NCBI GenBank assembly: GCA_944325155.1 | Contig: CALUYY010000005.1 | Location: forward strand, 62,001 to 126,000 | Source of the DNA: Candidatus Gastranaerophilales bacterium | Lineage (GTDB): Bacteria; Cyanobacteriota; Vampirovibrionia; Gastranaerophilales; Gastranaerophilaceae | Direction: 5' to 3' | Length of the DNA stretch: 64,000 bases | Part shown: positions 3,537 through 6,368 of the stretch, piece by piece | How the letters are laid out: the number at the start of each line of letters is the position of its first letter | How positions within the stretch are numbered: position 1 is the stretch's first letter | Program-made: the position numbers and the translations under genes | The notes under the pieces: model-generated | Told to the model about the DNA's origin: nothing | What the model saw: only the letters and a program-made list of their open reading frames with translations | The model's database searches: none

Positions 3537-3612
3537 GGGGAATTAGCTCAATTGGTAGAGCACCTGCTTTGCACGCAGGGGGTTAGGAGTTCGAGTCTCC
3601 TATTCTCCACCA
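3537..3612 (+). tRNA. tRNA-Ala (anticodon TGC), CCA encoded
   Basis: A full cloverleaf can be drawn: acceptor GGGGAAT/ATTCTCC, D-stem GCTC/GAGC, anticodon stem CCTGC/GCAGG with loop TTTGCAC (anticodon TGC), T-stem AGGAG/CTCCT with loop TTCGAGT, discriminator A and encoded CCA. Its 3' half from 3583 is the left attachment repeat of the downstream integrated element, so the functional 3' end is shared with, and may have been supplied by, that element. Confidence 0.97.
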
Positions 3613-3615
3613 TTT
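3583..3615 (+). repeat. attL: left copy of 33-bp direct repeat
   Basis: Identical over 33 bp to 6336-6368 and overlapping the tRNA-Ala 3' end from the T-stem through CCA. The match stops sharply on both sides (G versus T on the left, T versus A on the right). Confidence 0.85.
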
Positions 3616-3620
3616 TATAT

Positions 3621-3643
3621 AAGAGCCTACAAGGCTCTTTTTT
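3621..3643 (+). terminator. Rho-independent terminator after tRNA-Ala
   Basis: Stem AAGAGCC/GGCTCTT with a short loop and a T-run directly after the tRNA. It lies inside the element, so integration appears to have replaced the original terminator, which survives beyond attR at 6369-6396. Confidence 0.8.
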
Positions 3644-3699
3644 AATGCATTTTTGGCATATTTTCAAAACACAAAAATAAGATAAAATAAATATAAAAG

Positions 3700-3715
3700 G
3701 GACCAAAAAGGGACT
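3700..3715 (+). repeat. Element end repeat, left copy (16 bp)
   Basis: GGACCAAAAAGGGACT is found here and again at 6210-6225, about 100-125 bp inside each att site and in the same orientation. The following ~60 bp (to about 3775) are imperfectly similar to the bases after the right copy. This could be a recombinase arm site or a leftover of an older end. Confidence 0.6.
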
Positions 3716-4050
3716 GCTTAAAAAATTTCTTTATTTTAAAGGGTTTCTAAAATCAAACAAAATTAAAGATTACACAATAATTTTTGCGGTAAATGCGGTC
3801 AATCCCAAATAACACATAAATTTCAGGATTACCACCTGCAATAATTGCGCTCAATGCCAATGTTTATATAAATATTGGTCTATTTTACTATGCCAAATTT
3901 TTAAAATCGAAAACAGTATTAATAAATTACACAATTTCGCAATTCCAAAACCCGCTTGCACCAATCGAAGTCAAGAATTTGGGAGCACGTTTTTATAAAA
4001 CAGTTTATTATAAATTTGCGTAATTTAAAAAATAAAAAAGGAGCAAATTT
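3716..4050. other. Non-coding left arm of the element
   Basis: I find no gene here on either strand. It contains an imperfect direct repeat of 22 bases (3785-3806 and 3837-3858, 17 of 22 identical), both copies with the core TAAxTGCGxTCAATxCC. The spacing is 52 bp, or about five helical turns. Such repeats could be protein-binding sites. A good ribosome binding site (AAAGGAG) for the next gene ends the region. Confidence 0.5.
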
Positions 4051-4425
4051 ATGGAAAAATTAGCAATAGCTTTAGTGATTTTCATTTTTATTCTTGGCCT
4101 TATTGAAGAAGCAAAAAATCGATTAAACGGTTACAACGACAATGATGATTGCTATGAAGAAGATAATTATGATGACAACGACAATTGGAATAATAATTAT
4201 TCTTGCAATCAGCAAAGTTGTGCTAGTCCGCAATTTGACAATAGTTTTATCACTCACGCTCAACCGCCCGAATATCATCATAAAGATACTAACGAATATA
4301 AAATGCTGGTGCGCGTCAAAGGAAACAAATATGCAAGACAGGAAGAAATTACCATAGAAGCACACAACATATCTGAAGCTCGACAAAAGGCTAAAAATAT
4401 GGGTTACGACATTATCAGAAGTTAG
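4051..4425 (+). CDS. Membrane-anchored acidic protein of the element
   Basis: A 124-residue protein with an AAAGGAG ribosome binding site. Residues ~4-20 (LAIALVIFIFILGLI) form one N-terminal membrane helix. Residues ~28-60 are a low-complexity Asp/Asn/Tyr/Glu stretch. Residues ~80-124 form a compact alpha/beta domain (YKMLVRVKGNKYARQEEITI, then ISEARQKAKNMGYDII). The gene ends 7 bases before the DnaB-like gene, whose Shine-Dalgarno overlaps the junction, so the two form an operon. The family is not recognised. A tether placing the small C-terminal domain at the membrane is the simplest reading. Confidence 0.75.
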   Translation: MEKLAIALVIFIFILGLIEEAKNRLNGYNDNDDCYEEDNYDDNDNWNNNYSCNQQSCASPQFDNSFITHAQPPEYHHKDTNEYKMLVRVKGNKYARQEEITIEAHNISEARQKAKNMGYDIIRS

Positions 4426-4432
4426 GAAAAAT

Positions 4433-5119
4433 ATGAACAAAGAAGAATTAAACAAAATCTTAAAATATTTTATAAAAGGTTCATTAATTGCAATAGGTGG
4501 TCGCCCTGCTATGGGAAAAAGAATATTTGCGCTGAATTTAGTTGAATTATTTTGTAAAGAAGGGCATAAATGTCTGTATATAACAGATTACAATAGACAA
4601 ATAATTGTAAAAATGTTATTAAAAATTGCTGCAAACCTAAATGACAACGATAGTTTAAAGGTGCAAACAGAAAAATTCTCGCAAGCAACAAAAGAACTAA
4701 ACAATTGGAATTTAGTTATTAAATCTACAGAATTTTGCAGAATAAAAGACATTAAACAAATAATACAGAAATACAAACCTGATTATTTATTTATCAATAT
4801 GCACATTAACAGCAGAAATAGGTTAAGTTCTGAAAAATTGAGAGAAATATTAAAGTGTAATAATTTAATAATCTTTAAACTGGTAAATACTCGCAAGGAA
4901 CCACACAACACAACAAACCATTATCCAAAAATTATGGATTTACAAGATAAAAATCTTCCAAGATACTCAGATGCAGTCTTATTACTCTATCGTGAAGATT
5001 ATTATAATTGTGATATTTCAGATGATAAAAAAAATATTATTGAAATAATTCAGGTAAAACCTGAAAATAATTTAATCAAATTAAAATTTAACAGAAAAAC
5101 TGGAAAAATCGGAATATAA
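4433..5119 (+). CDS. DnaB-like RecA-fold protein with degenerate catalytic motifs
   Basis: A 228-residue protein matching the C-terminal ATPase domain of replicative helicase DnaB without its N-terminal domain. GGRPAMGKR (residues 22-30) aligns with DnaB Walker A GRPSMGKT, but the Mg-binding Thr/Ser is Arg30. The segment around CLYITDYN (47-54) aligns with the FSLEM motif but lacks the catalytic Glu. The Walker B position is YLFIN with Asn122 for Asp. The later part (SDAVLLLYREDYYN, then FNRKTGKIGI) follows the DnaB C-terminal pattern. The fold looks intact while ATP hydrolysis is probably lost. It may act as a helicase mimic, decoy or regulator; this is inference. Confidence 0.8.
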   Translation: MNKEELNKILKYFIKGSLIAIGGRPAMGKRIFALNLVELFCKEGHKCLYITDYNRQIIVKMLLKIAANLNDNDSLKVQTEKFSQATKELNNWNLVIKSTEFCRIKDIKQIIQKYKPDYLFINMHINSRNRLSSEKLREILKCNNLIIFKLVNTRKEPHNTTNHYPKIMDLQDKNLPRYSDAVLLLYREDYYNCDISDDKKNIIEIIQVKPENNLIKLKFNRKTGKIGI

Positions 5120-5129
5120 AAAATCACAA

Positions 5130-5160
5130 AATTAAAGGCTCCATAAAGAGCCTTTAATTT
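5130..5160. terminator. Bidirectional terminator between DnaB-like gene and UDG
   Basis: ATTAAAGGCTC/GAGCCTTTAAT stem (5131-5141 with 5148-5158) flanked by A and T runs, serving the plus-strand operon and the convergent UDG gene. Confidence 0.8.
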
Positions 5161-5903
5161 TATTCTGTCTTCCAATCAATCATATCAACATTGTTTGCCC
5201 GTAAAAAATTATTGCACTCTTCAAAAGGTTTAAATTTTTTATCCTTAAAGGCTGAAATCTCACCATTGCAGATAGTTTTTATACAAGCCTGATAATTATT
5301 TGACGGATGAGAAGAACGCAAAATTTTAATAAATGGATATTTTTCTTGAAAGTCTACTTCCTGTTTATTTCCTTTATAAGCTAAAACTTCTATTTCGTTT
5401 GCTTTTTTACCCCACAACATAACTACTAAAGGTTGTTTGTTTTCAATCTTAGTTTCAAGAAGTTTAGATATTACTTGATTTGTAAAATTACGCCAAGCAT
5501 TTATATGAAAGTCTTTATTATCAGGCACAAAGGTTAAAGCAGTGTTTAGCAACAAAACACCCTGATTTTTCCAAGCTGACAAATTTGTATAACTGTTTTC
5601 AATTCCAACATCTTCCCTGATTTTGCGGAAGATATTTAACAACGAATCTTCGGCAGGGATTTCACCGTTTTTGTATGAAAATGCAAGCCCATGAGCTTTT
5701 GTCTTATCTGGATAAGGGTCTTGACCAATAATTAATACTTTAATATCTTGTGGCTTTAAATTTTCAAATGCGCTAAAAATATCTGCTTGACTTGGTCTTG
5801 TGCACTCATTAATACATTTTTGAATATCTGGTGTAAATAGCTTTTCTACTTCCCGACTTGTGAACCAGTTATTTTCAACCAAAATTTTCTTCAGAGCTTC
5901 CAT
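5160..5903 (-). CDS. ung: Family 1 uracil-DNA glycosylase
   Basis: This enzyme removes uracil from DNA. From the preferred start at 5903 (AGGAGAAGGG ribosome binding site) it has 247 residues; an upstream in-frame ATG at 5948 lacks such a site. The catalytic water-activating Asp is D62 in GQDPYP (60-65). GVLLLNTALTF and the SHPS motif near the C-terminus complete the family signature, although HPS is followed by NNY instead of the usual PLS. It lies inside the tRNA-Ala element, convergent to the DnaB-like gene. UDG is normally a housekeeping gene, so cargo carriage is notable; whether another copy exists in the genome is unknown. Confidence 0.92.
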   Translation of the reverse strand: MEALKKILVENNWFTSREVEKLFTPDIQKCINECTRPSQADIFSAFENLKPQDIKVLIIGQDPYPDKTKAHGLAFSYKNGEIPAEDSLLNIFRKIREDVGIENSYTNLSAWKNQGVLLLNTALTFVPDNKDFHINAWRNFTNQVISKLLETKIENKQPLVVMLWGKKANEIEVLAYKGNKQEVDFQEKYPFIKILRSSHPSNNYQACIKTICNGEISAFKDKKFKPFEECNNFLRANNVDMIDWKTE

Positions 5904-6335
5904 ACTTTCCCTTCTCCTATTTAGAACCCAGAGGCATAAATTAAGCATATCTTACTACTAATAAGTACATATTAACGCATTAAGGTAGTAAAAGCAAGCT
6001 TATTTAGGAACTTTTGCAGTCTTTAAGATTTTTTTGAAATATTAAATTGTAAGATTTTTCTATATTGCTAATTGATAAATTTCTTGGTGGATTGCAAATT
6101 AAATCACTAAAGCCCAAAATATCAATTTGACAGAATAAGTAATTTTTCATGTGCTTATTTTAAAATAAAAGAACAGTGTTTACAAATTAAATTTTATCTT
6201 TAATCAATTGGACCAAAAAGGGACTAATTTTACAAATAGTCCCTGGAAATTATTAAAAGTTACCAAAGGAAAAAGTTTTTAAATTAAACAATACTAAAGA
6301 CTACTAGATGAAATTTGAAAACACAAAAAGCGTTT
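5904..6335. other. Non-coding right arm of the element
   Basis: No gene is supported on either strand in these 430 bases. The region holds the right 16-bp repeat (6210-6225). This is followed by an inverted repeat GGGACT/AGTCCC (6220-6225 and 6238-6243) and sequence similar to the left arm. Confidence 0.5.
6210..6225 (+). repeat. Element end repeat, right copy (16 bp)
   Basis: Exact copy of 3700-3715. The bases at about 6274-6309 resemble 3746-3775 (AAATxAAACAAxAxTAAAGAxTAC pattern), extending the similarity beyond the 16 bp. Confidence 0.6.
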
Positions 6336-6368
6336 TTAGGAGTTCGAGTCTCCTATTCTCCACCATTT
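6336..6368 (+). repeat. attR: right copy of 33-bp direct repeat
   Basis: Exact copy of 3583-3615, here a tRNA 3' fragment without the 5' half. It marks the right boundary of the integrated element. Confidence 0.85.

Follow-up and report, generated by a model that had tools for sequence, protein, structure and literature searches.

Sequence comparison and structure prediction identify P0001, a 228-residue protein of Candidatus Gastranaerophilales, as a DnaB C-terminal domain (DnaB_C) that is encoded by a genuine open reading frame, travels as cargo on mobile elements integrated at tRNA genes in the Gastranaerophilaceae, and has an active site from which we infer a loss of ATP hydrolysis. By profile comparison it is nearer to a family of stand-alone DnaB_C proteins linked to reverse transcriptases (RTs) than to any replicative DnaB examined. 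We favour, with somewhat better than even confidence, the reading that P0001 is an orphan, dead descendant of this RT-linked family, kept under selection as mobile cargo and acting by binding rather than by catalysis. The RT-linked family itself, whose members apparently belong to an undescribed, retron-like cassette of DnaB_C, RT and RNA, is the larger discovery of the two.

P0001 is encoded on the forward strand at 4433–5119 of the window (the 64,000-nucleotide stretch of DNA that was analysed), where the reading frame, uninterrupted as an earlier note on this DNA had stated, has 228 codons; the opposite strand is rich in stops and has no comparable reading frame. The Pfam DnaB_C profile (PF03796) matches residues 4–222 over profile positions 7–249 of 255 (E = 3.2e-18; 66.5 bits, above the gathering cut-off of 27), and the score against the DnaB equivalog TIGR00665 is 54.2 bits, far short of its cut-off of 385. 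P0001 also matches a phage DnaB-like family in PHROGs, and phmmer against the PDB retrieves solved DnaB chains (E = 4e-12). An AlphaFold2 model (mean pLDDT 89.8, pTM 0.89) superposes on DnaB 4esv with a Z score of 27.5 and 2.5 Å over 224 residues, followed by G40P, lambda-P-bound Escherichia coli DnaB and others, with Twinkle, T7 gp4, RadA and KaiC scoring lower. The fold is thus the RecA-like one of DnaB_C, and the earlier note's statement that the protein follows the DnaB C-terminal domain from end to end and has not lost its fold is borne out. Because the input alignment of 37 relatives included DnaB relatives, the model is support for the fold rather than fully independent proof. The protein begins at the first helix of the C-terminal domain, with no N-terminal domain or linker helix, and in alignments it lacks about ten residues after Walker B.

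The active site is degraded more widely than the three independent losses first proposed, one of which is conservative or ambiguous. Two of these are plain: in the P-loop, GGRPAMGKR (residues 22–30; 4496–4522, forward strand), Arg30 (codon 4520–4522) replaces the Walker A Thr or Ser, and in Walker B, which reads FIN, Asn122 (4796–4798, forward strand) replaces the Asp. The third, a missing FSLEM Glu (with TDYN in its place), was put too strongly. The Glu is indeed not retained, but Asp52 (4586–4588, forward strand), which is invariant across orthologues, aligns either with the Glu or beside it, its placement being set by a one-residue gap, so that a Glu-to-Asp substitution fits the alignments as well as a loss does. 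Overlooked were the disappearance of the Gln sensor (SQLSR to NTRKE) and of the arginine-finger hairpin (KQRNG to KPENN). P0001 thus lacks the residue set of an active DnaB (GK[TS], Walker B Asp, Glu, sensor Gln and arginine finger), and, with the two residues that would coordinate Mg2+ (Thr and Asp) replaced or lost along with the sensor Gln and the arginine finger, it should not run the hydrolysis cycle. Asp52 could partly stand in for the catalytic Glu, and Arg30 could occupy the usual place of Mg2+.

These losses are shared by a family that is under constraint. When 84,980 species genomes were scanned, P0001 orthologues turned up, at 76–98% identity, only in metagenome-assembled genomes of Candidatus Gastranaerophilales; the sixth match, from SAR86, was rejected as an ordinary DnaB with 23% identity. 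Among phages, plasmids and IMG/VR records the relatives were full-length DnaB proteins only (22–28% identity), and two unannotated ‘phage’ records (H1 and H4) look like pieces of bacterial chromosome. Within the order, 383 genomes searched with a profile yielded ten close members from several genera, and an identical protein is encoded in three genera, which indicates horizontal transfer. All ten members have GKR and lack the Glu, and all but one have FIN; in the exception, L061, which is the most diverged orthologue (57% identity), GKR occurs together with FID, a sign that the losses were stepwise, Thr to Arg preceding Asp to Asn. Pairwise dN/dS values within the family are 0.16–0.41, and 106 of 228 positions are invariant among the nine sequences compared. 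In these nine, 8 of 9 P-loop positions and 12 of 15 in the YRExYY region are invariant, against 2 of 7 in Walker B, so selection holds the fold and the phosphate-binding loop while the catalytic metal site has been released. Since the losses are common to the orthologues and the dN/dS values are low, we regard P0001 as a selected pseudo-ATPase and not a product of decay, in agreement with the earlier note.

The mobile setting proposed for P0001 also holds. A tRNA-Ala gene (TGC anticodon; 3537–3612, forward strand; ARAGORN) is the integration target, and the final 30 bases of the gene, together with the 3 that follow, form a 33-bp direct repeat (attL, 3583–3615, forward strand) that recurs exactly at 6336–6368 on the same strand (attR), the right border of the element. 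This pair of att repeats at a tRNA gene, as expected of an integrative element, encloses about 2.8 kb and three genes (3583–6368). The first (4051–4425, forward strand) encodes a 124-residue protein with a hydrophobic N terminus; its stop lies 7 nt before the P0001 reading frame, it is also found directly upstream of P0001 in related elements, and it has no family match in the Pfam, equivalog and PHROGs profile searches. The last, on the reverse strand at 5160–5948, encodes a family-1, Ung-like uracil-DNA glycosylase (UDG) with GQDPY and HPS motifs (Pfam UDG; PDB match with E = 1e-24; below the cut-off of NCBIfam ung). The genome has three more UDG-superfamily genes.

An integrase was not found in the window copy, and the genome has only distant integrases. 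The same cargo occurs in related elements that do have an integrase (L018–L021, L054–L058 and L060); one of them, L054, shares 92% identity with the window copy from the tRNA to just beyond the UDG gene, after which the window copy has lost the remainder, so that it is an internally deleted, non-autonomous mini-element. The related elements adjoin tRNA-Ala or tRNA-Ser, and those for which both att sites could be located (L056, L057 and L060) are about 11 kb long. Their order is an optional OB-fold protein, the 124-residue protein, an optional pseudo-methyltransferase, P0001, an optional LuxR-type helix–turn–helix (HTH) protein and the reverse-strand UDG, followed by an XRE repressor, an HTH protein, a DUF3987 primase-like protein, a tyrosine integrase and variable 3′ cargo. 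The pseudo-methyltransferase (214 aa), adjoining P0001 in L019 and L020 (5317–5961 in both), L055, L056 and L058–L060, resembles N6/N4 DNA methylases, with DPPY changed to TPDL and the SAM-binding FxGSG (FMGSGT) changed to FCNSES. It may be a second dead enzyme in the cargo, which would fit a theme of decoys or scaffolds.

The earlier note had pointed to the DnaB ring of the host or a phage as the target, and here the evidence leads elsewhere. Members of the P0001 family score 116–128 bits against a profile of the RT-linked DnaB_C proteins and 48–59 bits against one of cellular DnaB; when the test is turned round, all stand-alone DnaB_C proteins score above all cellular DnaB proteins. The best pairwise identities of P0001, 31–35%, are mostly with L063 and with a clade without RTs (L062, L066 and L091), which has the same shortened stretch after Walker B. 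In a tree, P0001 leans towards the stand-alone family with weak support and a long branch, and a grouping with cellular DnaB is left standing by the AU test (p = 0.33), so its kinship rests on the profile scores. No RT lies beside P0001 in the window element (tblastn). The RT clade is missing from all ten genomes in which a P0001 relative occurs, but with so few genomes this is uninformative: by chance only about 0.8 overlaps are expected.

The same profile search of 383 genomes recovered many proteins of 260–310 aa that consist of DnaB_C only. In 21 of the 32 stand-alone DnaB_C loci the next gene on the same strand encodes an RT of about 285 aa (L071:8622–10507; L063, L065, L067, L070 with two copies, L072–L082, L084, L087, L089 and L092), with DnaB_C upstream and a spacing between a 40-nt overlap and a 19-nt gap; truncated RT remnants lie beside three further stand-alone DnaB_C genes. 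The RTs match RVT_1 (E = 1e-21) and the PADLOC profiles RT_II-A (1.8e-50) and RT_X (2.8e-49), as well as NCBIfam retron_St85_RT at 1.5e-49, below its cut-off. The DnaB_C partner matches none of the retron effectors in PADLOC, its sole match there being mad8. Of the 383 genomes of the order, 29 have the RT clade, and a sample of the phylum (386 genomes) added occurrences in the same family only. Frequent neighbours of the cassettes, judged by eye from their sequences, are WYL-type regulators, PD-(D/E)XK-like proteins and McrBC. Several RT-linked subclades have replaced the catalytic Glu (SLRRS, SLGRS, SLQYA, SPSLP and SPVLT) and kept Walker A and Walker B, and giving up hydrolysis may thus be a recurrent tendency of the family that has gone furthest in P0001. 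AlphaFold2 run without an alignment on one RT-linked DnaB_C protein gave a pLDDT of 37 and no usable model. The DnaB_C-only loci of L062 (7945–12131), L066 and L091 have no RT and encode RES instead of the catalytic LEM, and Walker B reads FIE in two of the three; the L062 gene adjoins McrC- and McrB-like genes. In L040 (G244:C70), a DnaB_C domain is fused behind a WG-repeat-like N-terminal part in a protein of 507 aa.

The cassettes also have a candidate RNA. A conserved element of about 118 nt lies immediately 3′ of the RT in 20 of 21 cassettes. On the strand opposite the RT it forms a 5′ hairpin (GGC(A)AGCG-AUU-CGCU..GCC) and then a terminator-like hairpin, with changes on both sides of six pairs. 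At one pair, 5 of 13 sequences have C·A on the RT strand and U·G on the convergent strand, a reason to prefer the latter. The best sampled group has a GACACAAAATGACG box ahead of the DnaB_C gene and also ahead of the RNA. With a covariance model, the RNA is found just 3′ of RTs outside the training set (in G117, G185, G346, G315, G213 and G098), and the RNA directly follows DnaB_C where there is no RT at L085:8633–8749 and L088:8234–8350. In P0001’s elements and the window it has no convincing match, the window giving only E values of 0.6–1 at places away from 4433–5119. Rfam returned only tRNAs from seven RT cassettes. An RNA upstream of the DnaB_C genes was considered and rejected: the promoter region there is conserved and the structure unconvincing. 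The cassette looks tripartite and retron-like, with an unusual RNA that is downstream and convergent; it has the look of a defence system, and production of RT-DNA is putative. A search of the open-access literature found no precedent linking DnaB with retrons, although an earlier description is possible.

How might a protein of this kind act? P0001 keeps its phosphate-binding P-loop (GRPAMGK). In the reading that we favour it has no hydrolysis cycle and would be a subunit or decoy, fixed in place and perhaps with nucleotide bound, that packs against other subunits of the DnaB_C type and blocks or scaffolds them. Both this assembly and the ensuing inhibition are inferred. The partners would be RT-linked DnaB_C subunits or, with lower probability, those of a replicative DnaB ring; the element’s own module could also supply them. 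Identity of only about 30% between P0001 and the RT-linked proteins counts against a specific co-assembly. A related but rather improbable account makes P0001 an instrument of counter-defence: an element would have captured the DnaB_C subunit of a retron-like system, and the copy, its catalytic residues lost, would poison the RT–DnaB_C–RNA system of the host by mixed assembly. The closest kin of P0001 are indeed RT-linked proteins of the same bacterial family, and this mobile cargo adjoins another degenerate enzyme, the pseudo-methyltransferase; but no sampled genome has both partners, and the function of the RT system is itself putative. Equally doubtful is the idea that P0001 inhibits a replicative DnaB ring, whether of the host, a helper phage or a competing element, by entering or capping the hexamer and stalling it. 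The N-terminal domain and linker helix help to hold DnaB subunits together, and P0001 has neither; the profile scores, moreover, prefer the RT-linked family by about 60 bits. The end-to-end DnaB_C fold and the mobile setting would suit such an inhibitor, as would the precedent for phage attack on helicase loading, a step that phages are known to target, for instance through a phage protein that binds the Staphylococcus aureus loader DnaI (PMC4887207).

P0001 might instead be a structural or sensing subunit of its own cargo module, a nucleotide- or DNA-bound scaffold that does not act on DnaB proteins and that would work with the 124-residue protein, the OB-fold protein, the pseudo-methyltransferase, the LuxR-type HTH protein and the UDG. 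We think this unlikely, though the conserved gene order around P0001 in the elements and the 7-nt distance to the 124-residue gene speak for it, because the window copy persists with just that gene and the UDG gene, so that most of the module is dispensable. Very improbable indeed is a functionless, decaying helicase relic, to which the loss of several catalytic residues and of the integrase half of the window element might seem to point: intact orthologues in ten genomes, the low dN/dS values and the invariant positions, P-loop included, contradict it for the family as a whole, though not for the present use of the window copy. Our preference accordingly stays with a selected, binding-only descendant of the RT-linked family.

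We found no description in the open-access literature of inactive DnaB paralogues or of these Gastranaerophilales elements. Selected dead copies of the replicative helicase motor on mobile elements would offer a simple route to an inhibitor or a scaffold, and the homology of P0001 points to a source for one: a stand-alone DnaB_C protein that, in gut Gastranaerophilaceae, is joined by a retron-type RT and a structured RNA. If the cassette proves to be a retron, the PADLOC 2023 set has no effector of its kind, and the orphan P0001 makes it possible to test directly for regulation of the cassette by dead subunits.

Compared with known systems, P0001 shares with the DnaB C-terminal domain (PF03796; 4esv and 3bh0) the whole length of the fold, the P-loop and the PxxxDL and YRxxYY motifs. 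It differs in that the N-terminal domain and linker are absent, as are the Thr of Walker A, the Asp of Walker B, the sensor Gln and the arginine finger, while the catalytic Glu has become an Asp or is lost. Like the RT-linked proteins (L063–L092), against which its profile scores are highest, it is a single DnaB_C domain without an N-terminal domain, but in them GK[TS] and the Walker B Asp are intact, and an RT and a convergent RNA accompany the gene, whereas P0001 has none of these and is shorter. Likeness to retrons (II-A, X and St85) is limited to the RT of its relatives, since P0001 has neither RT nor RNA, and even the relatives’ cassette differs in that its DnaB_C protein is no PADLOC effector and its RNA is downstream and convergent. 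Although no capsid, packaging or relaxase gene was recognised in the elements that carry P0001, and their status as satellites is putative, they share with phage satellites and small integrative elements the att site at a tRNA, a tyrosine integrase, an XRE repressor, a DUF3987 primase-like protein, a length of about 11 kb and a variable cargo.
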